From: Candidatus Latescibacterota bacterium
GTDB taxonomy: Bacteria; JAAXHH01
Length of the DNA stretch: 64,000 bases
Direction: 5' to 3'
Assembly (NCBI GenBank): GCA_022821085.1
Contig: JAJEEG010000006.1
Location: 753,330 to 817,329, forward strand
Shown in pieces: positions 8,597-28,670 of this stretch. The translations under genes and the position numbers were made by a program. A model generated the notes under the pieces. The model worked only from the letters and a program-made list of their open reading frames with translations. It searched no databases and had not been told where the DNA came from. Position 1 is the first letter of the stretch, and every line of letters begins with the position of its first letter.

Positions 8597-8613
8597 GAAG
8601 TTTCGGGAACTTC
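8597..8613 (+). promoter_or_regulatory. Hairpin covering the higB ribosome-binding site
   Basis: GAAGTT at 8597-8602 pairs with AACTTC at 8608-8613, leaving TCGGG in the loop. The stem ends on the base before ATG 8614, and the weak GGGA Shine-Dalgarno bases lie in the loop and stem edge. It could lower toxin translation. Confidence 0.35.
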
Positions 8614-8907
8614 ATGCGCATAATAGCAAAAAAGACACTTAGAGAGTTCTGGAACCGTCATCCTGATGCTGAGCGACCTTTACTCGCCTGGTACAGGGAA
8701 GTCAAAAAGGAGGACTGGGAAACACCTGCCAGGATCAAAGAAAAGTTTGGAAAAGCCAGTATTATAGGGGGCAATCGAGTAGTCTTCGATATCAAAGGCA
8801 ACAGCTATCGCTTAGTGGCAGAGGTCGATTACCCCCATCGTACATTACGAATAAGGTTTATCGGGACGCACGACCAATATGCCGGGATAGACGCGAAAAG
8901 GATATAG
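8614..8907 (+). CDS. higB: HigB-family mRNA interferase toxin
   Basis: The 97-residue basic protein starting MRIIAKKTLREFWNRHP matches the HigB toxin family, ribosome-dependent mRNA endonucleases. Typical segments are LLAWYREVKKEDW, GGNRVVFDIKGNSYRL and the terminal RIRFIGTHDQY, which carries the usual C-terminal catalytic His/Tyr region. ATG 8614 is chosen over a TTG at 8575 because family members begin at this Met-Arg-Ile. The antitoxin gene starts two bases after the stop. As in other hig loci the toxin precedes the antitoxin. AT-rich surroundings contrast with neighbouring genes. Confidence 0.85.
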   Translation: MRIIAKKTLREFWNRHPDAERPLLAWYREVKKEDWETPARIKEKFGKASIIGGNRVVFDIKGNSYRLVAEVDYPHRTLRIRFIGTHDQYAGIDAKRI

Positions 8908-8909
8908 AT

Positions 8910-10121: not shown

Positions 10122-10192
10122 GGTGACCATGATCGGCGCTGGGAGGTTTCTGTCGTTATAGGCATTCACCAACAGGTTGATGTATGGTACGA

Positions 10193-12429: not shown

Positions 12430-12441
12430 CGCTTACCTCCT

Positions 12442-13038
12442 TCAGGATGCGTGGAACCACCACTCGGGCCACGCGAGTACGCGTTCTGCCAGTGCGGCGT
12501 AACCGCCTTCGCCTGGATGAATAAGATCGTTACGGACTGCTTCGTTACGCCAGACTCCGCCTGCGTGCAGATCATGGATCACCTCTAGATACGGGACGCC
12601 GGCTCTATCGGCGATCTCGCCGATGAGTTCCGAGATTTCCACCCTGCGGCTGTGTTCGTCTTCGTCGACACCGGGCGGCGGACCGATCATCAACGTGGGA
12701 AACTGCGAACTCGCGCGGGTCAGGATTTCTTCGGCATTGGCCTCGGTCTCGGCTCGTTCCACCCGCTTTTTCCCATCTATGATCCAGCAGTCGTTCGCCC
12801 CGAAACCGAACACCACCCGGCCGTCGTGCGGTATCAGGCGCCTGACTTCCACTTCCTGTTCCCAGCGCCGGAGCACGTCGACACTCGTATCGCCGCGGAT
12901 GCCGAGGTTGTAGCAGGTGATCGACACGTCTTCGCTTCTCGACGCGGCACACGCGCGTCCCGGCCATCCAAGATAGGCGGGATCGCCGGTTCCATTCACG
13001 TAGGAATCACCTATGAAGTATATGCGGACGTCTTCCAT
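12442..13038 (-). CDS. SGNH/GDSL-type hydrolase
   Basis: The 198-residue protein has the SGNH blocks in order: the nucleophile Ser in YFIGDSYVNGTG near residue 12, Gly in block II (NLGIRGDTS), Asn in FGFGANDC and the Asp-His pair in DLIHPGEGGY near residue 175. These enzymes are esterases or lipases with a flavodoxin-like fold. There is no signal peptide, so it is likely cytoplasmic. It is the first gene of a minus-strand operon with a PhyH dioxygenase and aroA. The substrate is unknown. Confidence 0.87.
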   Translation of the reverse strand: MEDVRIYFIGDSYVNGTGDPAYLGWPGRACAASRSEDVSITCYNLGIRGDTSVDVLRRWEQEVEVRRLIPHDGRVVFGFGANDCWIIDGKKRVERAETEANAEEILTRASSQFPTLMIGPPPGVDEDEHSRRVEISELIGEIADRAGVPYLEVIHDLHAGGVWRNEAVRNDLIHPGEGGYAALAERVLAWPEWWFHAS

Positions 13039-13200
13039 GTACTTTATCTATCCTCTCCGCCGATTCGTTTAGCCTGCGGGTCTGTCCATTGCCTCTGGCC
13101 TATCTTCCGGTCTATCATCCGGTCTGTCCATTTCCACCGGTCCGATCGCATGTTCGATTCCGCAACCTGAAATGGAAGCCGGAAACGCCTAAAGCATACG

Positions 13201-13250
13201 AATTTTCCGTGTAATTATCAATTGCCAATTGCGTCGTGACATGGAAAATT
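13201..13250. promoter_or_regulatory. 11-bp inverted repeat around a doubled CAATTG
   Basis: Arms at 13201-13211 (AATTTTCCGTG) and 13240-13250 (CATGGAAAATT) pair with one G-T wobble. The 28-base loop contains CAATTG twice, at 13219-13224 and 13226-13231. It could be a regulator site or a transcript hairpin. Confidence 0.4.
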
Positions 13251-13280
13251 GGTACAGGTTGGTACAGGGCGGAATGCCGT

Positions 13281-13334
13281 GGTATACACGGTATACACGG
13301 TATACACGGTTTATGCGGTAAACGCGATATACGT
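13281..13334. repeat. 9-bp tandem array (GGTATACAC)
   Basis: Three exact copies of GGTATACAC at 13281-13307 are followed by three decayed copies up to 13334. Each unit contains the palindrome GTATAC. The array ends 36 bases before the next start codon. Confidence 0.85.
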
Positions 13335-13370
13335 AGAATGGCCTACTGATCTATTGCGGGGTATGCAACC

Positions 13371-14378
13371 ATGCGCGCATACGACATTGACCATAACCAG
13401 CTTCGCCTGGCCGATCTGCCGGAACCGGGGGAACCCGGACCCGGCGACGCGCTGGTCAGGGTCCGGTCCGTATCGCTCAACTACCGGGACCTCATGGTCG
13501 CCAGGGGCCGATACGGAAAACCCTTTGAGGGCAGGTTCGTCGCCGGGTCCGACATGGCGGGCGACGTGTTGAAAACGGGAACGGGGGTCTCGGGCATCCG
13601 GCCGGGCGACCGGGTCGTGAACGCGCCATTCCTGCGCTGGCCCGCCGGAAGACTCACACCCGATGGGATGAAGACCCTGGTCGGCGCGGGCGGCGTGGAC
13701 GGCGTGCTGTGCGAGCAAGTGCTCTATCCCGCGGACTCCCTGGTCTCCATGCCGTCCCACTTCTCCTACCACGAAGGCGCGACGTTGCCTATCGCCGGAC
13801 TGACCGCCTGGGCTTCGGTCGTATCGCAGGGTCGATTACAGGCCGGGGAGAGGGTCCTGCTGCACGGAACGGGCGGAGTATCCGTGTTCGCCGCACAACT
13901 CTCGGAACTCACTGGGGCGCAGGCGTTATTGACCACATCCTCAGAAGAGAAAGCCCGCCGGATGAAGGATGAATTCGGCGTACTGGAGACCTTCGATTAC
14001 CGGGACGACGACTGGCCGGACCAGGTACGGTCCTTCACCGGCGGCTTCGGGGTCGACCTGGTCGTGGACGTGGCAGGCGGCCAGACCTTCGCGAAGTCCC
14101 TGAAAGCCTGCGCGCTACACGCCCGGATATCCCTCGTGGGCATCCTGGACGGCTTCGAAACCCGCCTCAATCCCTTCGATATCATCGGCCGGCAAATCCA
14201 GGTTCGCGGGATCTACACCTCCTCCGCCGAAGACCTGCGCGACCTGGTCAGGGCCTGCGAAGCGTCGGGACTCAGGCCCTGCATCGATCGGGTGTTTCCC
14301 TTCGATGAAGTGCCCGCGGCCTACGACTACCTCGAATCACAACGGCATATCGGCAAGATCGTGTGTGCGTTGCCGTGA
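13371..14378 (+). CDS. Zinc-independent medium-chain dehydrogenase (quinone oxidoreductase-like)
   Basis: The 335-residue protein has the MDR fold: an N-terminal GroES-like domain with SLNYRDLMVARGRYG, then a Rossmann domain with GERVLLHGTGGVSVFAAQ near residues 160-178. The catalytic-zinc and structural-zinc cysteine sets are absent, placing it with quinone oxidoreductase-like members. The enzyme probably reduces an enone or quinone with NADPH. It stands alone on the plus strand after the repeat-rich intergenic region and converges on the SelD fusion gene 58 bases downstream. Confidence 0.87.
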   Translation: MRAYDIDHNQLRLADLPEPGEPGPGDALVRVRSVSLNYRDLMVARGRYGKPFEGRFVAGSDMAGDVLKTGTGVSGIRPGDRVVNAPFLRWPAGRLTPDGMKTLVGAGGVDGVLCEQVLYPADSLVSMPSHFSYHEGATLPIAGLTAWASVVSQGRLQAGERVLLHGTGGVSVFAAQLSELTGAQALLTTSSEEKARRMKDEFGVLETFDYRDDDWPDQVRSFTGGFGVDLVVDVAGGQTFAKSLKACALHARISLVGILDGFETRLNPFDIIGRQIQVRGIYTSSAEDLRDLVRACEASGLRPCIDRVFPFDEVPAAYDYLESQRHIGKIVCALP

Positions 14379-14436
14379 CTGGTCAGGTCCGCGCGGCCAT
14401 ACTCAGCTATCACCTGCGTCGTCTTGCGCTGAGGGT

Positions 14437-16758
14437 TCAGCGGATCTTCAAGTGCCGTTTCCGGTCGGTCACCCGTCCGATGCAGGCCGCTTGCGCGTAA
14501 CCGGCTTCCCGCAGTTTCGCGACGATCTTGTCGATGCCGGAGACAGGCACGCCGGCCAGCAGTCCACCGGACGTCTGGGGGTCGAAGAGTATTGCGTCCC
14601 GCCCGTCCGATACGCCATGCTCCACCTCGTCCGCGGCGCCAGGACCCACTGTGTCCGCCGTGCCGGGTCCCGACTCCACCTGCCATCTCTTCTGTAAGTG
14701 TTCCCGGTTGGACGGCGCCAGGGTGCTTTCCACGCCGGCGGCCACGCAATCGGCCGCGCCGGCATAAAGCGGTATCCGGTCGATTTCGAGCTCCGCGCCG
14801 GCCCTGCTGGCCTCGAGCATCTCGACCAGGTGTCCCGCCAGGCCGAAGCCGGTCACGTCCGTGACGGCGGGTATGCCGGCCTCAGCGAGGATCCGTGCCG
14901 CCTCCGCGTTGGACCGGAGCATGCCCTCGAAGACCGCGTCGACCCAGCTACCCCTGGCCTTCAGGTGCATGTCGGCCGCCAGGATGACGCCCGTTCCCAG
15001 GGGCTTGGCGAGGACGAGCCCGTCCCCCGGCCGCAATCCTCCCTTCCTGAATACGGCGTCGCTGCCGGTCAGGCCGTTCATGGTTATGCTGACGGCCGTC
15101 TCCGAGCCTTCGCTCGTATGCCCGCCGAGGAGCGTGACCCCGAGACGCCGGGCTTCTTCCGCGATCCCGCCCATGAGCTGTCTCAGGTCGTTCGCCACGA
15201 GGGGTTTTTCCGCGTAGGGCAGCGTGACCGTAACGAGTGCGGAGTGGGGTTCGGCCCCCATGGCGTACAGATCGGACGCGGCGTGTACCAGGGCGATGCG
15301 GCCGAAGAGGTGCAGGTCGCCGGTGAAGGCCCGGAAGCCGTCCACAGTCTGTACCAGCGACCGGCCGGGAGGAATCTCCAGCAGCGCCGCGTCGTCGGCG
15401 TCGTGCAGTCCGATCCGGACGCCCTCCCGGCTGTATACCTCCAGTTCGTCGAGAACGCCGGTCAATACGGTAGAACCGACCTTGGCGCCGCACCCGGCGC
15501 AGCGCATGGACGACACTTCCGGACCTCCGCCAGTTTCTTTTCCGGTGTGGTGCGCGTCGCCGGTAGGGTGCGCATCGTGCGCGGGCGGCGCATCGCCGGC
15601 CGGGTCCATGGGCGGCAGCAGCGCCGGTTCGAACTTCCGCATCCAGCGCCGGTCGATCCAGTCCTTCAACCGCCACACCCAGGGGCCGTGGAAGGAGGCG
15701 AGACGCCGGCTTGCCACGGCGTTCCGCGTCCCGGTCATCAGCAGCGCGAGCGCGGAGGCCTGGGGCCTGTAGGGAACCGGGGACCGGTTTTCGAGCCAGG
15801 CATGAAGGTTGCGGGCAAGGACGGGTCCCTCGCGGACTGCGTATACCCCCGATTTGGGCAGGGTACGAGAGGGGAATTCGATACAGTCGCCCGCCGCGAA
15901 GACGTTGTCGTAATCCATGGCCTGCAGGGTGGGCCGGACGCGGATGAACCCGGCATCGCTGGTCGCCAGGTTTGCTTCCTTTAATAAACCGGGCGGCGCT
16001 CCGCCCGTTGCCCAGAGCAGGAAGTCGAAGGGCAGGGACGGATGATCTTCGAAATGGACCGATTTTTCATCCACGCCCACAACCCGCAGGCCGGTATGGC
16101 AGGCGATCCCCTTTTCTTCGAGGTATCGCCCGATGATCGCGGCGACCCGGGGACGGTGCCCGGTCAGCAAAGTCGTCCGCGCATCCACGAGGGAGATCTG
16201 AACGGGCGCGAATCGCTCTCTCCATCTCGAGTGCATGGCAAAGGCCAGTTCCACGCCAGCCGCGCCGCCTCCCGCGATGACGATCCGTAACGGCCGGCCG
16301 TCGCTCCGGTGGTTTGCGTCGAACTGGTGAACTCGCTTCAGCAGCAGGCCGAGCGGCCTCGTGGGCACGGCGAATTCCCGCACGCCCGGGGTGTCCATGC
16401 CCCGAGGAATGGAACCGACGTTGATCGAAAGGGCATCGTAGGCAAGGGGAGGCCGGCCGTCGTCGAAGAAAACCTGCTGGAGCGCCGGATCGAGACCGGA
16501 CACGCGTGCCCGGACGAACCGGATACCTGCCCAGGTACACAGCGGCCTTAATTCCATTTCCATCTCGTCGGGTCGGTACAGGCCGGCCAGGCAACCGGGC
16601 AGCATACCGGAATAGCAGACGGTGGATTCGTCCGAGATGAGCGTGACGCGGATGCCGCCCAGGGCCTTTTTCATGGCCAGCATGCGGATGACCTGTACGT
16701 GGGAATGGCCGCCGCCGACCAGCACGAGGTCTTTTTTTAGAGGGATGGTCTGGTTCAT
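14437..16758 (-). CDS. selD: Flavoprotein NAD(P)H oxidoreductase fused to selenide, water dikinase (SelD)
   Basis: The 773-residue protein has two enzymes. Residues about 1-380 are an FAD/NAD(P)-dependent disulfide-type or NDH-2-like oxidoreductase with dinucleotide motifs GGGHSH near 17 and GGGAAG near 163 and an AAGDCIEF FAD-binding end. A His/Asp/Gly-rich linker follows at about 388-413. Residues about 415-773 are SelD, which makes selenophosphate from selenide and ATP: the essential Cys423 and Lys426 in AGCGAK, DDAALLEIP, the SDLYAMG segment and GGHT. Cys, not selenocysteine, occupies the active site. Fusions of this type are known in other bacteria; the flavoprotein may supply reduced selenium. 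No other selenium gene is nearby. Confidence 0.9.
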   Translation of the reverse strand: MNQTIPLKKDLVLVGGGHSHVQVIRMLAMKKALGGIRVTLISDESTVCYSGMLPGCLAGLYRPDEMEMELRPLCTWAGIRFVRARVSGLDPALQQVFFDDGRPPLAYDALSINVGSIPRGMDTPGVREFAVPTRPLGLLLKRVHQFDANHRSDGRPLRIVIAGGGAAGVELAFAMHSRWRERFAPVQISLVDARTTLLTGHRPRVAAIIGRYLEEKGIACHTGLRVVGVDEKSVHFEDHPSLPFDFLLWATGGAPPGLLKEANLATSDAGFIRVRPTLQAMDYDNVFAAGDCIEFPSRTLPKSGVYAVREGPVLARNLHAWLENRSPVPYRPQASALALLMTGTRNAVASRRLASFHGPWVWRLKDWIDRRWMRKFEPALLPPMDPAGDAPPAHDAHPTGDAHHTGKETGGGPEVSSMRCAGCGAKVGSTVLTGVLDELEVYSREGVRIGLHDADDAALLEIPPGRSLVQTVDGFRAFTGDLHLFGRIALVHAASDLYAMGAEPHSALVTVTLPYAEKPLVANDLRQLMGGIAEEARRLGVTLLGGHTSEGSETAVSITMNGLTGSDAVFRKGGLRPGDGLVLAKPLGTGVILAADMHLKARGSWVDAVFEGMLRSNAEAARILAEAGIPAVTDVTGFGLAGHLVEMLEASRAGAELEIDRIPLYAGAADCVAAGVESTLAPSNREHLQKRWQVESGPGTADTVGPGAADEVEHGVSDGRDAILFDPQTSGGLLAGVPVSGIDKIVAKLREAGYAQAACIGRVTDRKRHLKIR

Positions 16759-17791: not shown

Positions 17792-18541
17792 ATGTCCGAG
17801 CGGTCCGCGCAAGATGCGTTGGAGGCGCTGAAACAGTTCGATACGCCCTCGATTACAAACGTCGTGGCGACCTACCCGACCCACCCCCTCTGCCTGGGCC
17901 TATACAATCCATGGTCGGAGAACTGGTACACCGATCAGACGATCAAGTGCATCTATCCCGAACTCGGGCGCACCGTGGGCTATGCCGTTACCTGCGTATT
18001 CGGTTTGCCCGAGCCGGGCTTCAAGAACCTCTCTTTCATTGACATCATAGACGCGCTGGACGAATCTCCCCGACCGACGATACTCGTGATCCAGCAGAAA
18101 TTCCCGCCCGAGATCGCCGGCAAGGTGGGGCTGGCCGGCGGCAACATGGCTTCGGCCAGCAAGGCGGTGGGATGCGTCGGAATGTTATCCAACGGGCCTT
18201 CCCGGGATGTCGACGAGATCCGGCCCATGGCATTCCAGTACCTGTTGAGCGGCGTGACCCCGGGCCACGGGGACATGGCGGTACATGCCGTAAACGTGCC
18301 TGTGTCCGTAGGCGGGATGGACGTTGCGCCGGGTGAGATCATCCACATGGACGAGAACGGCGCCTGCAAGTTCCCGGCGAGCAAGCTGGATGCGGTCCTT
18401 GAAAACGCCACGGCCCTGGCGGCCGAGGAGGAAGTACGGATCACCGCGTTCCAGAATGCCCGGTCGGCCGACGAAGTCAAGGCCATCCTGGGCGGCCATA
18501 GCTACGGCAAACAGGACAACGGCAAGAAAGAAGAAGAATAA
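17792..18541 (+). CDS. RraA-family protein (HMG/CHA aldolase-like)
   Basis: The 249-residue protein resembles the RraA/dimethylmenaquinone methyltransferase-like family. Many catabolic members are class II pyruvate aldolases or oxaloacetate decarboxylases. Family features are the N-terminal LKQFDTPSITNVV, the central GGNMASASKAVGCVGML segment (the usual GG/active-site loop) and GDMAVHAVNVPVSVGGMDVAPGE cut by the expected Gly-rich turn. The canonical G-x3-R-D near the metal site appears only as NGPSRDVDE. AAGGAG lies seven bases before ATG 17792. Its stop shares one base with the sulfatase start, so the two are translationally coupled. Confidence 0.8.
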   Translation: MSERSAQDALEALKQFDTPSITNVVATYPTHPLCLGLYNPWSENWYTDQTIKCIYPELGRTVGYAVTCVFGLPEPGFKNLSFIDIIDALDESPRPTILVIQQKFPPEIAGKVGLAGGNMASASKAVGCVGMLSNGPSRDVDEIRPMAFQYLLSGVTPGHGDMAVHAVNVPVSVGGMDVAPGEIIHMDENGACKFPASKLDAVLENATALAAEEEVRITAFQNARSADEVKAILGGHSYGKQDNGKKEEE

Positions 18542-20022
18542 TGAAATGCGTATTCATCGTGCTTGATACCGTCCGCCGGGACTACCTTTCGACCTACGGC
18601 AACGACTGGGTGCATACGCCCGCCCTGGACCGACTGGCGGAACGGGGCGTCGTTTTCGACAACCACTGGGTGGGTTCGCTGCCGTGCATGCCGGCGCGGC
18701 GGGAGTTTATGACCGGGCGGTACAACTTCATTTACCGCGGATGGGGCCCTATCGAACCCTACGACGATACGCTGCCGGGCGAGTTGCGGAAGAACGACGT
18801 CTTCACCCACCTGCTGACCGATCATTACCACTACTTCGAACTCGGGGGAGAGAACTACCACACGGCGTTCAACACCTGGGACTTCTTCCGCGGCCAGGAG
18901 AACGACTGGTGGGCGTCCCACGTGGACCGCATGGCGCTGCCCGGCCACCTGGGCCAACTCAGCCAGCAGAATTACGGCAACCGGAAACTGCAGCAGCGCG
19001 AAGAGGACTTCTCCGGTCCGAAGACCGCGCAGGCGGCCATCGAGTGGCTGAAGACGAACCGGGCGTCCGACGACTGGTTCCTGCAGGTCGAAATCTTCGA
19101 TCCCCACGAGCCCTTTTATTGCACAGACAAATACCGGGACATGTACGGCGACGATTACGACGGACCGTTCTACGACTGGCCGAGCTACGACGAGGTCCAC
19201 GAATCCCCGGAAGCTGTCGAACACATCCGGAAGTGCTATGCAGGGCTGCTCACGATGACGGACCACTGGGTGGGCAGGATATTCGACACGCTCGACGACC
19301 TGGGGCTGTGGGACGACACGCTGGTCGTGTTCACCACGGATCACGGGACCATGCTGGCCGAGCATGACTTCTGGATGAAGAACATCATGCCCCTGTACAA
19401 CGAGATCGTCCGGATACCGCTGATCGCGAGCCTGCCCGACAATGAGCGGGCAGGTACGCGCACCGGAGCGCTCACGCAGACCATCGACCTGATGCCGACC
19501 TTTCTCGACTACTTCGATGTTGCGCCGCCGCCTCACGTCCAGGGACGGTCTCTGCGGGAGGTGCTGGACGGCGGCGGAGTCCGGGCGGATGGTATTTTCG
19601 GTTATTTCGGGATGGCCATGAACTTAACGGACGGGAGGTACGTGTACATGCGCAACCCGGTCAATGAGGACGCGGGACCGCTGTATGCGTACACGGCCAT
19701 GCCCACGGGCGGTTTGAACCGCTGGTATCCCAGGGAGGTGTACGACCGGGTCGAAACGGGCCGGTACTTCGGCCACACCTACAACCTGCCGTTGTACAAG
19801 ATCCCCACCGACGGCAAGGTCCCGCGTCACCACCCCGACGAGGCGTCCTACGCGGGGCGGAACCAGCTCTTCGACGTAGTGGCGGATCCCGCACAGCAGC
19901 ACCCCGTAGAAGATCCGGCGCTGGAAGCCCGGTTCACAGAACGGATCGCCCGGCATCTGCAGGCATGCGAGGCCATGCCGGAACAGTTCACCCGTCTGGG
20001 TATCGATCCACCCGCAGCTTAG
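18541..20022 (+). CDS. Sulfatase (Cys-type, CMPAR motif)
   Basis: The 493-residue protein is a formylglycine-dependent sulfatase. The metal-site start VFIVLDTVRRDY is followed by the modification site at Cys49 (C-M-P-A-R, then TG at 58-59), where most sulfatases have C-x-P-S-R. The second metal cluster is in FTTDHGTMLAEHDFW near residue 260-275. No signal peptide is present, so it is predicted cytoplasmic. The ATG overlaps the RraA stop by one base. The adjacent radical SAM maturase at 27258 could convert Cys49 to formylglycine. The substrate is unknown. Confidence 0.88.
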   Translation: MKCVFIVLDTVRRDYLSTYGNDWVHTPALDRLAERGVVFDNHWVGSLPCMPARREFMTGRYNFIYRGWGPIEPYDDTLPGELRKNDVFTHLLTDHYHYFELGGENYHTAFNTWDFFRGQENDWWASHVDRMALPGHLGQLSQQNYGNRKLQQREEDFSGPKTAQAAIEWLKTNRASDDWFLQVEIFDPHEPFYCTDKYRDMYGDDYDGPFYDWPSYDEVHESPEAVEHIRKCYAGLLTMTDHWVGRIFDTLDDLGLWDDTLVVFTTDHGTMLAEHDFWMKNIMPLYNEIVRIPLIASLPDNERAGTRTGALTQTIDLMPTFLDYFDVAPPPHVQGRSLREVLDGGGVRADGIFGYFGMAMNLTDGRYVYMRNPVNEDAGPLYAYTAMPTGGLNRWYPREVYDRVETGRYFGHTYNLPLYKIPTDGKVPRHHPDEASYAGRNQLFDVVADPAQQHPVEDPALEARFTERIARHLQACEAMPEQFTRLGIDPPAA

Positions 20023-20050
20023 GCCCGCAGCCCGCAGCTTAGGCCCGCAA
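20011..20050. repeat. 20-bp tandem duplication spanning a stop codon
   Basis: Copies at 20011-20030 and 20031-20050 differ at one base. The first contains the TAG that ends the sulfatase gene, so the last codons plus stop are repeated downstream. Confidence 0.9.
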
Positions 20051-20067
20051 CCTGGGATGGAATGATC

Positions 20068-21870
20068 ATGAAAAAGACTCGAATCCTGCGACGTTTCCCG
20101 GCGACGCTCCTGCTCGCCTTCGCGCTGTGGTCAGTGAACTGCGGCGACCAGCCGGCGCCGGACGATGCCGGCGAAAACACGCCCGCGCCGGATCTGTTCT
20201 TCGGCCAGACCGCGGAAATGAAGGAGGCGGCCCACGCCGCGCTGATGGAGCGCCTGCCCGATGATGCCGCGCCCCTCGAGTACCAGGTGTTCCGGTACAT
20301 GGCCGCGGAACCCAAGAGCATGGACCAGGGCGTCTCTATCTACGTGGCGGGCGGAAGCGAATTCCACTTCGAGCGGCTCGTCATGTTCGGAGTGAACGGG
20401 GAGCTTCTCCCTGGCGCGGCGCAATCGTGGGAACCTTCCGAGGACGGCAAGACCTGGACCTTCCACCTGCGCCGGGACGGCCGGTGGAGCGACGGCCGGC
20501 CTGTCACGGCCCACGATTTCGAATTCACCTTCAAGCGGTTTCTCCATCCCAACGCGGGCAACGTCTACGCCTTTCTCTATTACGATATCAAGGGCGCCAA
20601 AGCCTACAACCAGCGGGAAACGGACGACGTCGAAACTGTGGGCGTCCGGGCCCTGGACGACTACACCCTGGTCATCGAGACGGAGCAATCCTGCGCCTTT
20701 CTGCCCCATATCACCGCCTACCTCACGTCCGCGCCCGTCCCGCCCTGGCAGGTCGAGAAATACGGGGACCAGTGGGCCCTTGCCGGCACCTGCCTGACCA
20801 ACGGACCCTTCCAGCTCGAGACGTGGAAAACGGGCCAGTACATGACGTTCGGCCTGAATCCCCATTACACCGGGTCCCATCCGGGGCATCTCCGCCAGAT
20901 CGTCCGCATTTTCAACGCCATGGTCGGCTCGGCCAGCGCGGCGAACGACATGGGCCTGCTGCCCTACGAGAACGACGAGATCGACGTGATCGACGTCAGC
21001 CCCATGGTCTACGGCGGCCTGCGCGACGACCCGGAGTGGAACGAACGGGCGTGGTCCTACGATCAGTTCACGACGATCTACCTGTTCTTCCGGACGCGCC
21101 AGCCTCCCTTCGACAACCTCAAGGTCCGCCAGGCTTTCGCCCACGCCATCGACCAGGAGTCGCTGAACGAGACGATTCTCCAGGATATGATGATTCCCGC
21201 CTACACCATGCTGCCGCTCCATTTCCCGGGCTACGTCGGCGACAAGTACCGGGACCACCAGCGGTTCGACCCGGACCGCGCCCGTCAGCTGCTCGCCGAG
21301 GCCGGCTATCCGGGTGGCAGGGGTTTCCCGCGGATGGATCTCTGGCTCGCCGACGCGACACCCGCTTCCGCCATCAGCCAGGCGGCCCAGGCGATCCAGG
21401 AGATGCTGAAGGAGAACCTGAACGTCCAGATCGATATCCGGAACACGGAAGGCGCGGCGTATCGTTCGGCCATGTACGACTGGGAGTTCCCCATGAGCAT
21501 CATTGGGTTCAATTACGACTTCCCCGATCCCCACAGCATGCTGGGCATCATCTGGCGTTCCCAGCCCAGGGGCTACACGCGCCACGACTGGCTGAACCCG
21601 GAATTCGACCGCCTGATCGACGCGGCCGCCGGAGAGCTGAACCCCGAGGCGCGCATGGCCATGTACGACGAAGCCGAGGGGATTCTCGCCTCCGAGGCCG
21701 CGGCCGTCTTCCTGTGGCACGTCAATGCCTATCAGTTGCGCAAGCCCTGGCTGAAGGGGTTCCGTGAAGACCGGTGGGGCAACTTCCCCAATTACCGGAA
21801 CGCGAACACCTACTACGACCTTTATATCGGCCAGGAGGCCGTGGACAGCGGCCGGCGCATCGACTACTGA
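20068..21870 (+). CDS. Family-5 solute-binding lipoprotein
   Basis: The 600-residue protein has a basic N-terminus, a hydrophobic core and a lipobox-like WSVNC with Cys near residue 25, so it is probably a lipoprotein. The mature part is SBP_bac_5 (TWTFHLRRDGRWSDGRP, FFRTRQPPFDNLKVRQAF, PWLKGF). ATG 20068 is preferred over 20062 because GGGATGG ends seven bases before it. A spacer of about 40 residues rich in Pro, Asp and Glu follows the lipobox. It is embedded in the sulfatase block and is the likely uptake receptor; the ABC permeases are not in the window. Confidence 0.87.
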   Translation: MKKTRILRRFPATLLLAFALWSVNCGDQPAPDDAGENTPAPDLFFGQTAEMKEAAHAALMERLPDDAAPLEYQVFRYMAAEPKSMDQGVSIYVAGGSEFHFERLVMFGVNGELLPGAAQSWEPSEDGKTWTFHLRRDGRWSDGRPVTAHDFEFTFKRFLHPNAGNVYAFLYYDIKGAKAYNQRETDDVETVGVRALDDYTLVIETEQSCAFLPHITAYLTSAPVPPWQVEKYGDQWALAGTCLTNGPFQLETWKTGQYMTFGLNPHYTGSHPGHLRQIVRIFNAMVGSASAANDMGLLPYENDEIDVIDVSPMVYGGLRDDPEWNERAWSYDQFTTIYLFFRTRQPPFDNLKVRQAFAHAIDQESLNETILQDMMIPAYTMLPLHFPGYVGDKYRDHQRFDPDRARQLLAEAGYPGGRGFPRMDLWLADATPASAISQAAQAIQEMLKENLNVQIDIRNTEGAAYRSAMYDWEFPMSIIGFNYDFPDPHSMLGIIWRSQPRGYTRHDWLNPEFDRLIDAAAGELNPEARMAMYDEAEGILASEAAAVFLWHVNAYQLRKPWLKGFREDRWGNFPNYRNANTYYDLYIGQEAVDSGRRIDY

Positions 21871-21916
21871 GAACTCAGTGCAATTTCGCGCTTTGACCGA
21901 AGGATCGATTACTGAT

Positions 21917-22741
21917 ATGGAAAATGGACACCAGTACACCGAGATGACCGACGCGCAGCGGGAACATCTCGACCAATACGGCTACTTGATCATTGAAGAC
22001 GCCCTGCCTCCAGCGGTCGTCGGGGAGTTGAACGGGGCCATCGACGAAGTGTACGCCCGGGCCCGGCAGGAGGGCACGCTGGGGAAAGGCGGCGATCTGA
22101 ACATGCGGAACTGCATCGTGGCCCACGATGCCTTTTTGCAGTTGCTCGACTGGCCGGCGACCATTCCCCTGGCCTGGGGCGCGCTCAGCTGGAACATCCA
22201 GATGATCACCTCCCACCTGATCGTGCTGCCATCGGGACCGGAACCCACCGAGGACACCAAGCGCGGGCACGGCATGCACCGGGACGGCGGCCGGTCCTTC
22301 GTCGAAATGCAGGAACCCCATCCGCGCATCCTGCTGAAGATCGCCTACGTGCTCAGCGACCAGACGGATCCTTCCTCCGGGGCCACTTCGCTGGTGCCCG
22401 GCAGCAACCGGATCACGGGGGAGCCACCCAGGGATCCGGTCACGGGATGGCCGTATGGCGCCATCCAGATGAATCTGCCCGCGGGCAGCGCATTCTTGTT
22501 CGAGCAGCGCACTTTTCACAGCATCGGGCACAACTGGTGCGGCCACGACCGAAGGACCATCTTCATGGGATACGCGTATCGGTGGGTAAAGCCCATGGAC
22601 TACATTCAGATGCCGAAGTCCCTCGTGGACCGGTGCACGCCCCTCCAGAAGCAGCTGGTCGGCGAGGTCGGTGACGCCCTCAGTTACTATCTGCCCGAAG
22701 ACGAGGATGTACCCCTGAAAGCCTATCTCGGCGGAAAATGA
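21917..22741 (+). CDS. Phytanoyl-CoA dioxygenase (PhyH) family protein
   Basis: The 274-residue protein has the 2-oxoglutarate dioxygenase ligands: HxD in GMHRDGGRS, the distal His in QRTFHSIGHNW and an Arg in HDRRTIFMGY. The N-terminus (REHLDQYGYLIIEDALPP) is typical of PhyH proteins. ATG 21917 lies 46 bases after the lipoprotein stop. The next sulfatase starts nine bases after its stop, so it is part of the same transcript. A hydroxylase among sulfatases could open an alkyl sulfate, ether or methyl-sugar substrate; this is inference. Confidence 0.87.
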   Translation: MENGHQYTEMTDAQREHLDQYGYLIIEDALPPAVVGELNGAIDEVYARARQEGTLGKGGDLNMRNCIVAHDAFLQLLDWPATIPLAWGALSWNIQMITSHLIVLPSGPEPTEDTKRGHGMHRDGGRSFVEMQEPHPRILLKIAYVLSDQTDPSSGATSLVPGSNRITGEPPRDPVTGWPYGAIQMNLPAGSAFLFEQRTFHSIGHNWCGHDRRTIFMGYAYRWVKPMDYIQMPKSLVDRCTPLQKQLVGEVGDALSYYLPEDEDVPLKAYLGGK

Positions 22742-22750: not shown

Positions 22751-24100
22751 ATGTCCAACGTCCTCCTGCTCATCTCCGACGAGCATAACCCCTTCTATTC
22801 CTCCGTCTACGGCCATCCCTTCGTCCAGACGCCGGCCATGGACCGGCTCGCGGAGAACGGGGTTGTCTACGATTGCGCCTACTGCCCGTCGCCCCTGTGC
22901 ACGCCCAGCCGGTCCGCCTTCATGTCGGGGCGCAGGGTGCACGAGATCCAGGCTTATTCCAACTGCACCCTCGGCGTCGAACCGGACATACCCTCCTACG
23001 GGGGTGTCTTGTCCGAACAGGGCGTATATTCCGTTCACGTGGGCAAAACGCACGTCTTCGCGCCGAGCGGCGAACTGGGTTTCAGCGAGGTGCGCCTCGG
23101 CGGCAGGGAGCGGGGCGCCGGCGACCCGGAAATCGGCCGCCGGCCCTTCCGGATTCGGCGGGCCGCCGCGGAACGGGCCGCACAGTTCGGCGTAAAGGAA
23201 TCGCATCTCAGGCTCGACCTGGAACGTGTCGACGCCGCCGTGGATTGGCTCACGCATACCGCGCCTGGGCTGGATCGTCCCTGGACCCTCACGCTAAACA
23301 TCATCCATCCCCATTTTCCGCACTACACCTCGCAGGAATTGTGGGATCTCTATCCCCAGGGCGGCGATCTGCCGGAATACGGGGCCGATGAGGCGACGGC
23401 GAACCACCCCCGGGCCCGTGAAGTGCGCGAACACTTCCAGACGGACCGGTTCACCGAGGCCCAGGTACGGGGCCAGCGCCGCGGGTACCTGGCCTGCGTG
23501 ACTTTCGTGGACCGGCAATTGGCGCGCCTGGTCGAAGCGCTGAAAGCGGCGGGCCTGTACGAAGATACCAATGTGATCTACACGTCGGACCACGGGGAGA
23601 TGCTCGGGAAGTTCGGCATGTGGTGGAAATGCTCCCTCTACGAAGACGCGAGCCGGATCCCCTGCATCGCGGCGGGACCCGATTATTCCACCGGGTCGCG
23701 GGTGACGACGCCCGTGGACCTCCACGACGTCCAGGCGAGCCTTTTCGCGTCGACGGGCGCCGAAAGGCCTTCGGACTGGGCGGGTACTGCGCTGCAGCGC
23801 CTGTCCGAGGCCGATGATCAGCGTGTCGTGTTCTCGGAATACCACGGACACGGGGCGCGGCACAGCGCTTTCATGATCCGGAAAGGAAAATGGAAATACA
23901 TCCATCACGTCGTAGCGCCCCATCAGTTGTTCGACCTGGACCGGGACCCCGACGAGCTTCAGAACGTGTATCAGGCACACCCCGCGGTAGCCGCCGACCT
24001 GGAAAAGGAACTCCGATCGATCTGCGATCCCGAGGCGGAGGACGACCGGGCGGACCGGTTCATCGAGGCGCAACTCGAATCCATGGCGTCCGGCGACTGA
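22751..24100 (+). CDS. Sulfatase (Cys-type, CTPSR motif)
   Basis: The 449-residue protein has the classical sulfatase signature at Cys50 (C-T-P-S-R, then SGR) after the N-terminal metal-binding LLLISDEHNP. The second metal cluster is YTSDHGEMLGKFGMWWK near residue 278-294, with the C-terminal KWKYIHH strand. There is no signal peptide. The final codons and stop form the first unit of a 36-base tandem repeat array. It is closest in style to choline-sulfatase/arylsulfatase-like enzymes from bacteria that degrade sulfated organics, but no substrate can be named. Confidence 0.9.
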   Translation: MSNVLLLISDEHNPFYSSVYGHPFVQTPAMDRLAENGVVYDCAYCPSPLCTPSRSAFMSGRRVHEIQAYSNCTLGVEPDIPSYGGVLSEQGVYSVHVGKTHVFAPSGELGFSEVRLGGRERGAGDPEIGRRPFRIRRAAAERAAQFGVKESHLRLDLERVDAAVDWLTHTAPGLDRPWTLTLNIIHPHFPHYTSQELWDLYPQGGDLPEYGADEATANHPRAREVREHFQTDRFTEAQVRGQRRGYLACVTFVDRQLARLVEALKAAGLYEDTNVIYTSDHGEMLGKFGMWWKCSLYEDASRIPCIAAGPDYSTGSRVTTPVDLHDVQASLFASTGAERPSDWAGTALQRLSEADDQRVVFSEYHGHGARHSAFMIRKGKWKYIHHVVAPHQLFDLDRDPDELQNVYQAHPAVAADLEKELRSICDPEAEDDRADRFIEAQLESMASGD

Positions 24101-24190
24101 AGGGCGTCCGCCGAGTCCATGGCGTCCGGCGACTGAAGGGCGTCCGCCGAATCCATGGCGTCCGCCGATAGAAGGGCGTCCGCCGACTGA
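24076..24190. repeat. 36-bp tandem repeat array starting at a gene's 3' end
   Basis: Units at 24076, 24112 and 24148 are nearly identical and a partial fourth follows to about 24190. The first unit contains the last codons and TGA of the sulfatase. Because 36 is a multiple of three, each unit repeats the ESMASGD-stop pattern in the same frame. Confidence 0.9.
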
Positions 24191-24218: not shown

Positions 24219-25619
24219 ATGAATGATAAGCGATTGCTGGGCATCACCGTCCTGGCGGACTTCATCCTGAACGAAGGGGTGGAAGCCGTACTGGATAACC
24301 TGGTGGACCGGGCGGGCGCCACGGCTGTTGCGGTGAATCCCACGGTGACCGCGCCGTCCAATGAAGGCGTCGGTTCCTTCCAGCCGCCCAGCGACGCCGG
24401 CAGCAGTCCCCGCCTCTTCGATCGGCCGCTGTGGGGCCGGCGTTCGCTCTGGGTGCGGAGCGCACCGAGTTACAGGCCGTGTCTGTCGTACTATGCCGAT
24501 ACCCCGTACAAGCCCCGCGAACCCAATGAACTGACGGAAGCCCACGGTGACCTGATCGAACGGTTCATCGACGCGGCGCTGGACCGAGGGCTCGAGGTCT
24601 ACCTGCAACTGAGTGGCTCGACGCCGCCGGGACTGATGGACGAGGACCGGCCGCGAAGGCCGGATGGGGAGCTCCCGGACCGCATGGCGGACACAGGCTG
24701 CCTTGCCAGCGAGGCGATCCGGGCTTACATCGCCGCCTACGTGCGGGACCTGCTCGAACAGTATCCGCGCGTAACCGGCTTTCGACCGGACTGGCCCGAG
24801 TACCCCTGTTACAAGCTGGACGAGGCCTTCCAGGATTTCAATCCCCAGGTGGCGCGCTGGGCCTCGGACAACCAGTTTGACTACGCGGCCATCCACCGGG
24901 ACGTGCGGGCAGCCTTCGACTACCTGCACGGACGGCTCGAAAACCGGGACCTGCTCGACTTCAGCGGACCCGGCCGGGGCGCGGCGACGCTGGCCGCTGT
25001 TTTCCGGTCCTTTCCGGGCCTCATGGAATGGCTGCGCCTGAAATCCGCCCTGTCAGGCGACCTGCTGCGGCACTGGAGAACGGTCATCACGACGCACGGC
25101 GGATCCGAGAAGAAACTCTCGGCCAACGCCTTCATGACGCCCCTCACCCTGTGGACCGGCTTCGATTTCCGCGGGGCGCCGGAGATCTGCGACGCGGTGT
25201 CCCCCAAGCTGTATACCATGCATTGGTCGGTCATGGTGGAATTCTGGGGACGGGTATTGCTGGAGCACAATCCCGGCCTGGACGAAGGGCTCCTGGTACG
25301 GTCCCTCGCCCATCTCTTCGACCTCGGAGACGAAATCACGGCCACGCGGATCGACGATTACGGGTATCCCGGTCCCGACGAGCCCCATCCGGTCCCGGAC
25401 GACGCGCAGCGGCGGCGCATCGAGCAGGTCTGCACGGAGGTGAACGGGCGCGCGCTCGTTACGCCGCTCATGCACGGCTACGGCCCCCTGCATGATTTCG
25501 CCCGGCGTTTCCGGGTCGTTGCGGAAAGTCCGGCCGACGGCGTGTGGATCAACCGGTACGGGTACTTGAGCGACGACAAACTGGACGCGGTGGGCCGCAT
25601 CTGGCGCCACGCCCGTTGA
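24219..25619 (+). CDS. Hypothetical protein, possible TIM-barrel hydrolase
   Basis: The 466-residue protein is not assigned to a family. Its pattern resembles a TIM-barrel glycoside hydrolase-like protein: SYYADTPYKPRE early, an extended helix then the strand GLEVYLQLSGSTPPG, GFRPDWPEYPCYKLDE with paired acids, and SPKLYTMHWSVMVEFWGR. Several Trp, Asp and Glu residues at strand ends would suit carbohydrate binding. There is no signal peptide. It lies between two sulfatases, nine bases before the second, so it probably acts on the same compound. This is a target for structure prediction. Confidence 0.6.
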   Translation: MNDKRLLGITVLADFILNEGVEAVLDNLVDRAGATAVAVNPTVTAPSNEGVGSFQPPSDAGSSPRLFDRPLWGRRSLWVRSAPSYRPCLSYYADTPYKPREPNELTEAHGDLIERFIDAALDRGLEVYLQLSGSTPPGLMDEDRPRRPDGELPDRMADTGCLASEAIRAYIAAYVRDLLEQYPRVTGFRPDWPEYPCYKLDEAFQDFNPQVARWASDNQFDYAAIHRDVRAAFDYLHGRLENRDLLDFSGPGRGAATLAAVFRSFPGLMEWLRLKSALSGDLLRHWRTVITTHGGSEKKLSANAFMTPLTLWTGFDFRGAPEICDAVSPKLYTMHWSVMVEFWGRVLLEHNPGLDEGLLVRSLAHLFDLGDEITATRIDDYGYPGPDEPHPVPDDAQRRRIEQVCTEVNGRALVTPLMHGYGPLHDFARRFRVVAESPADGVWINRYGYLSDDKLDAVGRIWRHAR

Positions 25620-25628: not shown

Positions 25629-27155
25629 ATGACCCGTCCCAACATACTCTTCATCATGACGGACCAGCAGCGCTTCGATACCATCGCCGCGCTGGGCAAT
25701 GAGCATATATACACCCCCAACATGGACCGCCTCGTGCGCCGCGGCGTGTCGTTTACCCGGGGCTACTCGACCTGTCCCGTCTGTGTGGCAGCGCGGACGA
25801 CCATCCGCACGGGATGCGATCCACCCACGACCCGCGTGTTCAGCAACGGCCGGTCCGCGCCCGCACCCGGCCAGGCCGATACGCTCGAAGGCCGGTGCGG
25901 GGACTATCTCGCCCGCACCCTCTCGGCAGCGGGCTACCGGACCTTCGGCGTGGGGAAGTTCCACACCTTCCCGTGGAACGAGGACGTGGGTTATGAGTCC
26001 CAGCTCCACAGCGAGGAACTCTACGGCAGTCAGGAGCAGCGGCGCGGAGACGCCTACGCGGGCTGGATCGCCCGCGAGCACCCGGAATTTGACTATATCG
26101 AGGCGCTCATGGGGGAGCGGACCGAAATGTACTACATGCCCCAGGTCAGCCCGCTGCCCGCCCATCTGACCGTGGAGTCCTGGGCCGCGGACCGCGCGAT
26201 CGAAGCGCTGCACGCAACCGACGGCCGGCCCTATTTCGGTTTCGTTTCCTTCATCGGGCCCCATCCACCCTTCGCGCCGCCGGTGCCCTTCAACCGGATC
26301 TACGACCCCGACCGCATGCCGGGCCCGGTCCGTGGCGATCTTTCGGTGGACCACCTGGACGAGCAGATTCCCTTCATGAACCGGATCATCTGGGCGGATG
26401 AAATCAACGACGCGCTTACCCGCGTCCTCAAGGCTCGCTACTTTGGGGAGATCACCTACATCGACGACTGCCTGGGACGGCTTCTGAATGCCGTCGAGGC
26501 CCGGGAGGACGCCGGCAACACCCTCATCTGCTTTTTCTCGGACCACGGCGACCACCTCGGGGACCATACCGCGTGGCAGAAGGAGAGTTTCTTCGACGTC
26601 TCCGCCCGCGTGCCCTTCCTGGTAAGCTGGCCCGACCGCCTGCCCCGGGACGTTCGTCGAGACGATCTCGTCTGCCTGACCGATCTGTTCGCCATCGCCA
26701 CGCACGCCGCAGGACGGACCCAGGTGCGCGACGGGATGGACGTGCTCGGCGTGCTGGACGGAAGCGCCGCGCCCAGGGAAACACTCTTCGGGTATTACGG
26801 CGAGCCGGGGACGGACCGGTTCAAAATCATGGTACGTAGCGGCGATTGGAAGTATATTTACATGGCGAACGGCGCCAGGGAGCAGTTGTTCAACACGGCC
26901 GAGGACCCGGCCGAGGTGGTGAACCGGGCCGTGTCCGACCGGGATGTCGCCGACGATCTGTACCGGCGCGGCCTGCAGGCCTGCGGGCATCCGGGCGCCG
27001 CCGACGCCCTGGATGGCGACCGCCTGCGGTCCTTTCCCTACACGAAGTGGAAGGCCTCGCGCATCTACCAGTTCGACCGGTCGCGCGGCGTGCGAGGTTT
27101 TCCCGGTCATCCGCGCGATGCGCTGGATCCGTGGATCCGGCGCGGCCGGCGATAG
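25629..27155 (+). CDS. Sulfatase (Cys-type, CVAAR motif)
   Basis: The 508-residue protein has the metal-binding start NILFIMTDQQRFDT and a formylglycine site at Cys52 (C-V-A-A-R, then TG at 61-62), matching the C-x-A-x-R variant. The second metal cluster is FFSDHGDHLGDHTAWQKE near residue 300-317, followed by KIMVRSGDWKYIYM. There is no signal peptide. It starts nine bases after the unknown TIM-barrel-like gene and is followed by the maturase gene after 102 bases. All three sulfatases of this block are Cys-type and look cytoplasmic. Confidence 0.9.
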   Translation: MTRPNILFIMTDQQRFDTIAALGNEHIYTPNMDRLVRRGVSFTRGYSTCPVCVAARTTIRTGCDPPTTRVFSNGRSAPAPGQADTLEGRCGDYLARTLSAAGYRTFGVGKFHTFPWNEDVGYESQLHSEELYGSQEQRRGDAYAGWIAREHPEFDYIEALMGERTEMYYMPQVSPLPAHLTVESWAADRAIEALHATDGRPYFGFVSFIGPHPPFAPPVPFNRIYDPDRMPGPVRGDLSVDHLDEQIPFMNRIIWADEINDALTRVLKARYFGEITYIDDCLGRLLNAVEAREDAGNTLICFFSDHGDHLGDHTAWQKESFFDVSARVPFLVSWPDRLPRDVRRDDLVCLTDLFAIATHAAGRTQVRDGMDVLGVLDGSAAPRETLFGYYGEPGTDRFKIMVRSGDWKYIYMANGAREQLFNTAEDPAEVVNRAVSDRDVADDLYRRGLQACGHPGAADALDGDRLRSFPYTKWKASRIYQFDRSRGVRGFPGHPRDALDPWIRRGRR

Positions 27156-27257
27156 CCCCATCTACCCTGACGATCCGCGCTCGATAGCCCCGTATATCCG
27201 GGAAAACGTCATGCCGCAGGTTCGTTGCTGCAGGAACGAAAAGGCCCAGGAAACAAC

Positions 27258-28604
27258 GTGAACCCACTCGACGCAACCACCGCGGTCCCGGCATCGTCCA
27301 TGCCCTCGGCCGGAGGAGATCCGGTCCCAGTCCCGGCGTTTCACGTGATGATGAAACCCCGGGGCGCCATCTGCAATCTCGACTGCAAGTACTGCTACTT
27401 CCTTGCCAAGGAGGACCTGTATCCCGGCAGCGGGTTCCGCATGTCCGACGACCTGCTCGAGGAATACACCAGGCAGTACATCGAAGCCCAGCAGGTGCCG
27501 GAAGTCACCTTCGCCTGGCAGGGCGGCGAACCCACCCTCATGGGGCTGGAGTTCTTCCGGAAGGCCGTCGAGTACCAGAAGAAGCACCAGAAACCCGACA
27601 CGCGCATCTACAACTCCCTGCAGACCAACGGCACGCTCCTCGACGCGGACTGGTGCCGTTTCTTCCACGAAAACGACTTTCTGATCGGCCTGAGCCTCGA
27701 CGGACCCCGGGCGCTGCACGACGCCTACCGGGTCGACAAGGGCGGCAAACCGACCTTCGACACGGTGATGGGCGCGGCGGAGATGATGCAGGCAAGCGAG
27801 GTGGAGTTCAACATCCTGACCACGGTGCACGCGGCGAATGGGGAGCATCCCCTCGAGGTCTACCGCTTCCTGCGGGACGTGGTGAAGACGCGGTTTCTGC
27901 AGTTCATCCCCATCGTGGAGCTGGACAACGACACCGGGTACCAGGAAGGCAACGAGGTGACGGACCGGTCGGTGACGGGGAAACAGTACGGCCGGTTCCT
28001 GGTCCGGATTTTCGACGAATGGGTGCGGCGGGACGTGGGGAAAATGTACGTGCAGATCTTCGACGTGTCGCTCGCGGCCTGGTCCGGCCAGAGTCCTGGA
28101 CTGTGCATTTTCATGGAGACCTGCGGCGACGCCCTGGCCCTGGAGCACAACGGGGACCTCTACGCCTGCGACCACTACGTCGAGCCGGACTACTTGCTGG
28201 GCAATATCACCGAGATTCCCATGATGGAGATGGTCCTTTCCGAACAGCAGCGGGCCTTCGGGCAGGCCAAGCTGGACACGCTGCCGCAATACTGCCTGTC
28301 ATGCGACGTGCGGTTCATCTGCAACGGGGGATGTCCGAAGAACCGCATCATCACGACGCCCGACGGCGAACCGGGCCTGAACTACCTGTGCGAAGGGTAC
28401 AAGGCCTTCTTCCACCACATCGACGGCCCTATGCGGTTCATGGCCAACGAACTGCGCCACAGGCGGGCCCCCGCCAACGTGATGACGTACATCCGCCGGC
28501 AGGAAGCCGAGCTCAGGCGGCAGCGCGCGTTCAAATCGGCGGGCAGAAACGACCCCTGTCCGTGCGGAAGCGGCCTGAAGTACAAGCGGTGCCACGGCAG
28601 ATAG
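27258..28604 (+). CDS. Anaerobic-type sulfatase maturase (radical SAM/SPASM) with C-terminal SEC-C motif
   Basis: The 448-residue protein converts the sulfatase Cys to formylglycine in the cytoplasm. The radical SAM cluster is Cys39, Cys43 and Cys46 (CNLDCKYCYF). SPASM-type cysteines follow in CGDALALEHNGDLYACDHY and in the CLSCDVRFICNGGCPKN region. The last 20 residues are a SEC-C zinc motif (DPCPCGSGLKYKRCH). GTG 27258 is chosen because AGGA lies seven bases upstream and the length then fits; a TTG at 27225 is also open. Position at the end of a three-sulfatase block strongly supports the role. Confidence 0.9.
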   Translation: MNPLDATTAVPASSMPSAGGDPVPVPAFHVMMKPRGAICNLDCKYCYFLAKEDLYPGSGFRMSDDLLEEYTRQYIEAQQVPEVTFAWQGGEPTLMGLEFFRKAVEYQKKHQKPDTRIYNSLQTNGTLLDADWCRFFHENDFLIGLSLDGPRALHDAYRVDKGGKPTFDTVMGAAEMMQASEVEFNILTTVHAANGEHPLEVYRFLRDVVKTRFLQFIPIVELDNDTGYQEGNEVTDRSVTGKQYGRFLVRIFDEWVRRDVGKMYVQIFDVSLAAWSGQSPGLCIFMETCGDALALEHNGDLYACDHYVEPDYLLGNITEIPMMEMVLSEQQRAFGQAKLDTLPQYCLSCDVRFICNGGCPKNRIITTPDGEPGLNYLCEGYKAFFHHIDGPMRFMANELRHRRAPANVMTYIRRQEAELRRQRAFKSAGRNDPCPCGSGLKYKRCHGR

Positions 28605-28605
28605 G

Positions 28606-28670
28606 CCGGCGACCGGCCCGCGGCGCACCAGACCGGCGACCGGCCCGCGGCGCACCGCACCGGCGTGTCG
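28606..28670. repeat. 27-bp tandem repeat after a stop codon
   Basis: Units at 28606-28632 and 28633-28659 are almost identical and a short partial third follows. The array begins two bases after the maturase stop and nearly fills the gap to the convergent GPP34 gene. Confidence 0.85.

Follow-up and report, generated by a model that had tools for sequence, protein, structure and literature searches.

What does a protein do that matches no known family and whose gene lies between two sulfatase genes? The question is raised by P0001, a 466-residue open reading frame (ORF) in a stretch of 64,000 nucleotides (the window) from a Candidatus Latescibacterota bacterium. An earlier note, made from the DNA letters alone, had placed this ORF nine bases before one sulfatase gene and downstream of another. 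The arrangement holds: a 118-bp spacer separates sulfatase A from P0001, and 9 bp separate P0001 from sulfatase B. The features discussed below are collected in Table 1.

Table 1. Features at and around P0001. Positions refer to the window, except in the last row, which refers to the Oceaniovalibus locus L073.
Feature	Position	Strand	Remarks
RraA-like protein	17792..18541	+	PF03737
Sulfatase C	18541..20022	+	PF00884 from residue 4; CMPAR motif at 49
Solute-binding protein SBP_bac_5	20062..21870	+	Domain match; lipoprotein-like leader at N-terminus (by eye)
PhyH-family dioxygenase	21764..22741	+	Domain match
Sulfatase A	22751..24100	+	PF00884 from residue 2, E 1.8e-32; CTPSR motif at 50
18/36-bp tandem repeat	24076..24186	.	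Fills most of the sulfatase A-P0001 spacer; begins inside the last sulfatase codons
P0001, 466 aa	24219..25619	+	ATG start; predicted (beta/alpha)8 barrel; no annotated family
DWPEYPCY, codons 191-198	24789..24812	+	At and after the end of predicted strand 4; invariant in 42/42; candidate acids Asp191, Glu194
KLYTMH, codons 330-335	25206..25223	+	End of predicted strand 6; Lys330, Tyr332, Thr333, Met334, His335 invariant
Codons 419-426	25473..25496	+	End of predicted strand 7; His419, Tyr421, Gly422, Pro423, Asp426 invariant
NRYGYL, codons 445-450	25551..25568	+	End of predicted strand 8; Asn445, Arg446, Tyr449, Leu450 invariant
Sulfatase B	25629..27155	+	PF00884 from residue 4, E 4.5e-40; CVAAR motif at 52
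Anaerobic sulfatase maturase, radical SAM	27225..28604	+	TIGR03942, 490.1 bits (cut-off 349.45)
Compact gene run, Oceaniovalibus	1787-16677		Two TTT transporters, two sulfatases, two MR/MLE enzymes and a galactarate/altronate dehydratase-like enzyme around the P0001 homologue

P0001 belongs to an unnamed bacterial family

P0001 had been described as a protein that cannot be placed in a family, and the library searches bear this out. Neither the HMM search against Pfam that the earlier note had suggested nor a search against NCBIfam returned any family at E values up to 1, and phmmer found no PDB chain sequence at E values up to 10. We then used an alignment of 42 members, P0001 and 41 relatives. 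No Pfam family was common to even two of them; eight mutually unrelated Pfam families touched the alignment, each through one member (E 0.028–0.28), and the PDB sequences gave two chance matches only (E 1.5 and 1.8). We found no literature match to the letters of the P0001 motifs and no name for the family in the titles and abstract openings of the literature on GHL10, PgaB, Latescibacteria sulfatases and sponges, and TTT. The term 'sulfatase' does not occur in PMC12993501, on sponge-associated Latescibacterota.

P0001 is a real gene, since it is carried by all 12 genomes of the genus examined (its own included) and by 59 loci across several phyla. The other 11 copies in the genus are 86–94% identical to it, one being cut by a contig end, and a 73% identical copy (locus L022) occurs in one of the two other genera of the same family. 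Of the remaining three genomes of the phylum, one has no match, and two match distantly over only some 110 residues. The 59 loci, at 37–93% identity, were obtained by a scan of genome contigs with the congener alignment. Their labels are Latescibacterota, Gemmatimonadetes, Planctomycetota, Chloroflexi, Actinomycetota, Spirochaetes, Kiritimatiellia, Lentisphaera, Oceaniovalibus and, for some, bacteria only. Because it relied on two peptide patterns taken from close orthologues, the scan is biased to relatives that keep DWPEYPC or DEAFQDF. None of the matches in the 59 loci contains a stop, and the plasmid collection yielded no relatives. P0001 represents an unnamed bacterial family that is found in several phyla and is absent from the Pfam and NCBIfam libraries searched.

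The predicted fold is a complete (beta/alpha)8 barrel

For structure prediction with AlphaFold2 we supplied the 42 sequences. The resulting model of P0001 (pLDDT 93.6, pTM 0.92) is a complete (beta/alpha)8 barrel with eight strands in order (residues 6–10, 36–39, 126–132, 187–191, 299–305, 326–330, 417–419 and 441–445) and a few extra strands. Judging from this model, P0001 almost certainly adopts a barrel fold, as the earlier note had supposed.

The fold search used VIA-align, a re-ranking of the first 1000 chains from Foldseek. The nearest structure was PgaB (4p7l; Z 27.0, 321 aligned residues, 3.1 Å), with PgaB matches spanning Z 24.6–27.0 and BpsB (6au1) at 25.9. Cwp19 (5oq2) reached Z 23.9 (range of the Cwp19 matches 23.3–23.9) and was followed by beta-galactosidases and GH164 at about 22, and then by further carbohydrate enzymes. 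All of the best 50 VIA-align matches are carbohydrate-active enzymes; among the best 50 Foldseek matches, dihydroorotate dehydrogenase appears from rank 41 on. Two outcomes had been set beforehand as speaking against the earlier note, a confident hit to a non-carbohydrate family and a barrel-free fold; neither occurred. A common barrel alone is no proof of function. The fold, together with the genomic context of distant relatives, makes a carbohydrate enzyme likely.

Invariant residues gather at one end of the barrel

The active site of a barrel enzyme is formed where its strands end C-terminally. In the P0001 model, the C-terminal ends of strands 4, 6, 7 and 8 are occupied by the motifs DWPEYPCY, K-x-YTMH, H-x-YGP and NR-x-x-YL, respectively, each of which is invariant in 42 of 42 sequences. 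The list of invariant residues includes, among others, Thr10, Asp59, Arg65, Arg69, Gln130, Asp143, Asp191-Trp-Pro-Glu194-Tyr-Pro-Cys-Tyr198, Lys330, Tyr332-Thr-Met-His335, His390, His419, Tyr421-Gly-Pro423, Asp426, Arg430, Asn445-Arg446, Tyr449-Leu450 and Lys454. Their positions in the model make Asp191 and Glu194, after strand 4, the likely candidate acids. The earlier note had spoken of paired acids at strand ends; this stands for Asp191 and Glu194 and fails for strand 7, which ends in an invariant His. The catalytic pair of any known family is absent from P0001.

The sulfatase neighbourhood is conserved in the genus

Eight genes follow one another on the same strand: RraA-like protein, sulfatase C, SBP_bac_5, PhyH, sulfatase A, P0001, sulfatase B and the anaerobic sulfatase maturase. 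We infer that they are co-transcribed. The identical order was found in the five congener loci whose flanks reach about 10 kb in both directions (L017, L018, L019, L021 and L062), with sulfatase B split into two overlapping ORFs in L019, and the part of the run covered by the short congener contigs L020 and L048 agrees. At L022, in the other genus, sulfatase A, P0001 and sulfatase B are adjacent and the maturase lies 6.3 kb off. The genome of the window counts 30 PF00884 matches in 3.75 Mb, two of which are probably one gene because they lie side by side in frames of equal length.

Several further features were observed in the window. At residue 52 of sulfatase B, CVAAR replaces the usual C-x-P-x-R activation motif. 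The array after sulfatase A consists of units of about 18 bp and is kept in L017, L018, L021 and L062, where the spacer contains mini-ORFs made of ATG, four codons and a stop, each stop overlapping or touching the next ATG (e.g. TGAATG). Among the loci printed, this spacer is shortest in L048 (24 bp) and longest in L018 and the window (118 bp). Short tandem arrays occur at four further places in the window (617–657, 1758–1816, 20011–20049 and 28606–28665), each at an ORF end or no more than about a dozen bases from one, and such arrays may be a habit of this genome. On the minus strand, 14437–16758 encodes a pyridine nucleotide-disulphide oxidoreductase fused to an AIR synthase-like domain pair, which we take to be SelD-type.

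Some distant relatives lie near importers and sulfatases

In Oceaniovalibus (L073), one strand carries TctC, a short ORF, TctA, a sulfatase, an MR/MLE enzyme, a galactarate/altronate dehydratase-like enzyme, a second MR/MLE enzyme, the P0001 homologue a few bases after it, and again TctC, a short ORF, TctA and a sulfatase. The short ORFs are assigned as TctB by position only, and the two sulfatase domains begin at residues 5 and 8. In a Kiritimatiellia locus (L070), 8 bp separate the match from a preceding sulfatase ORF and 38 bp from a TctC ORF that follows, and in Lentisphaera marina (L072) TctC/TctB, TctA and a sulfatase lie downstream of the homologue. A TTT specific for alginate oligosaccharides has been published (PMC13390454, excerpt). 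The three relatives linked to both tripartite carboxylate transporters (TTT) and sulfatases suggest small imported acidic sugars. Taken together, the contexts speak for acidic sugars that are imported and used inside the cell, and do so most clearly at these three loci.

Elsewhere the neighbours vary. A partial homologue in Spirochaetales (L075) is preceded by a sulfatase, and a GH29 fucosidase overlaps its start. An RGL11_C protein lies 365 bp downstream at L027 (30.9 bits, cut-off 27), and ORFs 73–83% identical to it occur near L029, L031 and L032. MR/MLE enzymes and SDRs recur within 10 kb at several Chloroflexota loci; other loci have methyltransferases, an EamA transporter, aminotransferases, an AP_endonuc_2 protein, a histidine kinase, or nothing recognised nearby. 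The 28 reference proteins used had no match among the neighbours of a number of Planctomycetota loci (e.g. L042, L043, L050, L061 and L067).

To count sulfatases we used 45 dereplicated non-congener loci, i.e. the 59 minus 7 of the own genus and 7 near-duplicates (L026, L044, L051, L052, L053, L060 and L074), with short-flank loci kept. A sulfatase ORF lies within 3 kb in 12 of these; the remaining 33 are without one, some contigs ending sooner. Sulfatases are about 2.5 times as dense within 3 kb (14 in 234 kb) as at 3–10 kb (9 in 377 kb), a modest enrichment with a one-sided binomial p of 0.024 that ignores shared ancestry. On a quick family tree with 34 labelled rows out of 42, the sulfatase-nearby state needs 8 changes, and the association therefore recurs; L073 is labelled as having no sulfatase in this tree, its two being 3.6 and 3.8 kb away. 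The sulfatase link recurs but is not universal, and the two-sided flank is kept in congeners, not family-wide.

P0001 might also be a glycoside hydrolase unrelated to sulfate, its sulfatase neighbours being due to chance or specific to the genus in a sulfatase-rich genome. The 30 PF00884 matches of the genome would fit this, as would the 33 loci without a nearby sulfatase and the MR/MLE enzymes, SDRs, methyltransferases and AP_endonuc_2 protein found as neighbours elsewhere; many loci of the family come from sulfatase-rich phyla. We regard it as improbable, because both sulfatases are directly adjacent and conserved in congeners, the sulfatase-nearby state changes repeatedly on the tree, and sulfatases are denser close to the homologues than further away.

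P0001 is probably cytosolic

Between the preceding in-frame stop and the ATG of P0001 there is no other start codon in frame, and the first barrel strand of the model begins at residue 6; thus a signal peptide would not fit in front of it. In sulfatases A, B and C, the PF00884 domain likewise begins within the first residues (Table 1). Two Lentisphaera sulfatases have signal-like N-termini, so not all sulfatase partners are cytosolic. N-terminal hydropathy does not separate a leader from strand 1, since the value of the lipoprotein-like solute-binding protein (1.59) falls inside the range of the P0001 family (up to 1.77). The starts of the relatives were taken by hand as the nearest start codon and some loci offer earlier ones, so some relatives may be secreted. 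As for P0001 itself, the model points to a protein that is probably cytosolic and would act there on acidic or sulfated sugars taken up by the cell.

A cytosolic glycosidase-like enzyme is the best explanation

The best explanation as a whole, to which we assign a probability of about 50%, is that P0001 is a cytosolic glycoside-hydrolase-like (beta/alpha)8 enzyme acting on an imported sulfated or acidic saccharide. A place in carbohydrate catabolism is, taken by itself, highly probable, and hydrolysis of a glycoside is slightly favoured. According to this explanation, the solute-binding protein would help to import a sulfated, probably acidic, small saccharide or glycoside, and the sulfatases, activated by the neighbouring radical-SAM maturase, would strip the sulfate. 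P0001 would then cut the glycosidic bond at the barrel mouth, where an acid after strand 4 (Glu194 or Asp191) could protonate the leaving group and an anionic substrate could be held by Lys330, His335, His419 and Arg446. The released sugar acid would pass to aldolase- or dehydratase-type enzymes.

More tentatively, and with some doubt, the P0001 family can be read as a new class of cytosolic glycosidase that has a one-strand acid pair (Asp191/Glu194) and a basic pocket and cuts acidic sulfated di- or oligosaccharides imported by TTT or ABC transporters. If true, this would mean an intracellular route for sulfated uronate-type sugars common to Latescibacterota, Planctomycetota, Chloroflexota, Lentisphaerota and Roseobacteraceae. 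In the sea, sulfated polysaccharides make up a large pool of carbon, and names are still missing for many of the genes that degrade them. The P0001 family combines a confident barrel, the lack of a Pfam or NCBIfam entry, relatives in named Lentisphaera and Oceaniovalibus strains and a compact gene run, and is a testable entry to the fate of sulfated sugars after import.

Class I aldolases and N-acetylneuraminate lyase carry their Schiff-base lysine at the end of strand 6. Lys330 ends strand 6 in the P0001 model and is invariant in all 42 sequences, and would be in the right place for such a lysine. P0001 could then be a TIM-barrel aldolase, lyase, epimerase or isomerase that acts on a sugar acid with Lys330 as catalytic residue and hydrolyses no glycoside. 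The Oceaniovalibus run resembles a sugar-acid pathway, into which a non-hydrolytic step would fit equally, and P0001 has no known glycosidase pair. We nevertheless consider such an enzyme unlikely: aldolases and isomerases do not appear among the best 50 VIA-align matches, dihydroorotate dehydrogenase enters only late in the Foldseek ranking, and comparisons with one AP_endonuc_2 barrel and three MR/MLE enzymes yielded nothing. Moreover, strand 6 of Cwp19 carries a conserved Gln in a comparable position (PMC5765458, excerpt), so the role of a polar residue at this point may be to bind the substrate.

The earlier note had suggested that P0001 cleaves the polysaccharide backbone in a sulfated-glycan degradation pathway, and although the nearest fold, PgaB, cleaves a polymer (excerpt of PMC5933820) and sulfatases lie on both sides, this is very unlikely, and a secreted endo-glycanase is ruled out as the main reading, given the first strand at residue 6 with no earlier in-frame start, the flanking sulfatase domains that start at residues 2 and 4, the lack of a known depolymerase among the nine scanned neighbours, and the occurrence of some relatives with small-molecule importers in import-and-catabolise runs.

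P0001 differs from the known barrel families

Clan GH-A enzymes (e.g. GH42 and GH164) have a Glu after strand 4 and a nucleophile Glu on or after strand 7. This pair is absent from P0001, because its strand 7 ends at the invariant His419; its Glu194 follows the last residue of strand 4 by three positions. GH18 chitinases are characterised by the motif DxxDxDxE (DGxDxDWEYP), which the strand-4 sequence GFRPDWPEYP (residues 187–196) of P0001 resembles, and chitinase folds occur among the Foldseek matches listed (E 3e-4 to 1e-3). However, GFRPDWPEYP departs from DxxDxDxE, with one extra residue between the acids and Arg189 in place of an Asp, and none of the 42 family members matched Glyco_hydro_18. 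By analogy, a GH18-type reading of the motif would make Glu194 the acid, not Asp191.

GH153 (Pfam GHL13, PF14883) is the C-terminal domain of PgaB, a hydrolase of deacetylated poly-beta-1,6-N-acetylglucosamine, and shares the (beta/alpha)8 fold with P0001. PgaB has a single probable catalytic Asp, D474 (PMC5933820, excerpt), comparable to the acid proposed after strand 4 of P0001. PF14883, however, matched none of the 42 family members at E values up to 1 and none of the 15 genomes of the phylum (own included). Comparison of the 42-member alignment with a PgaB profile did not reach significance (E 0.0088, prob 4.6), which leaves the top structural match without sequence support; a single-sequence comparison with PgaB (E 0.0025) was aligned off the strand-4 motif and is too weak to count. 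Strand 4 is followed by DWPE (PDWPE) in P0001 and by HDD in PgaB (Asp466 and Asp467 in E. coli). Six PgaB sequences keep Asp466 in 5, Asp467 in 6 and, on strand 7, Glu607 in 6 cases, a position named in the excerpt of PMC5765458 and taken by His419 in P0001. The PgaB deacetylase domain is missing from P0001. Given the lack of a PF14883 match and the non-significant profile comparison, membership in GH153/GHL13 was rejected.

GHL10 (PF02638; Cwp19 and E. coli DigH) forms the second structural group. In Cwp19, Asp196 and the adjacent Tyr197 come shortly after strand 4, Gln295 and Tyr297 lie at strand 6, and strand 7 carries a Gly where a Glu would be expected (PMC5765458, excerpt). P0001 resembles this description in the absence of a strand-7 Glu and, less surely, in an Asp after strand 4 and x-x-Tyr after strand 6. 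The Lys330-x-Tyr332 of all 42 members was compared with Gln295/Tyr297 by strand number only; P0001 has Lys before the strand-6 Tyr where GHL10 has Gln, and DW where DigH has DD. Counted from the preceding Gly, the Asp lies at +4 in P0001, at +5/+6 in E. coli PgaB and at +4/+5 in DigH. A weak single-sequence alignment (E 0.01) places Asp191 on the first of the two Asp of DigH, not clearly the catalytic one, and from such alignments we are unsure of the exact counterpart of Asp191 in PgaB or DigH. Cwp19 is a cell-wall protein, unlike P0001 as read here. PF02638 matched none of the 42 members at E values up to 1, and P0001 was rejected as a GHL10 member.

The closest relatives by profile comparison belong to a family of about 390 residues from the same phylum (P0002/P0003). 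They are 29–32% identical to P0001 over about 110 residues and 58–63% identical among themselves, and their alignment to the 42 members covers 272 columns (prob 96.3, E 1.6e-9). The three unannotated loci are L014:805-1995, L015:826-1983 and L016:1255-2511; in L014 and L015 the gene adjoins an ORF that by eye resembles an oligogalacturonate-lyase-type propeller. The best Pfam match of this family is GHL10, below the cut-off, in two of three members (E 0.01 and 0.067), and it matches the GHL10-like proteins of the phylum only weakly (E 0.015, prob 3.0). The 42-member alignment matched these five GHL10-like proteins, four of which exceed the PF02638 cut-off, around strands 3–4 (prob 84.7, E 6.7e-6); a single one of them gave E 0.029, too weak to count. 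Control barrels gave E 0.12 (GH29) and 0.31 (AP_endonuc_2), both single sequences and therefore weaker controls, and 0.17 (three MR/MLE enzymes). On these profile comparisons, the most fitting place for P0001 is among the GHL10-like barrels, as a distant member that is not itself a GHL10.
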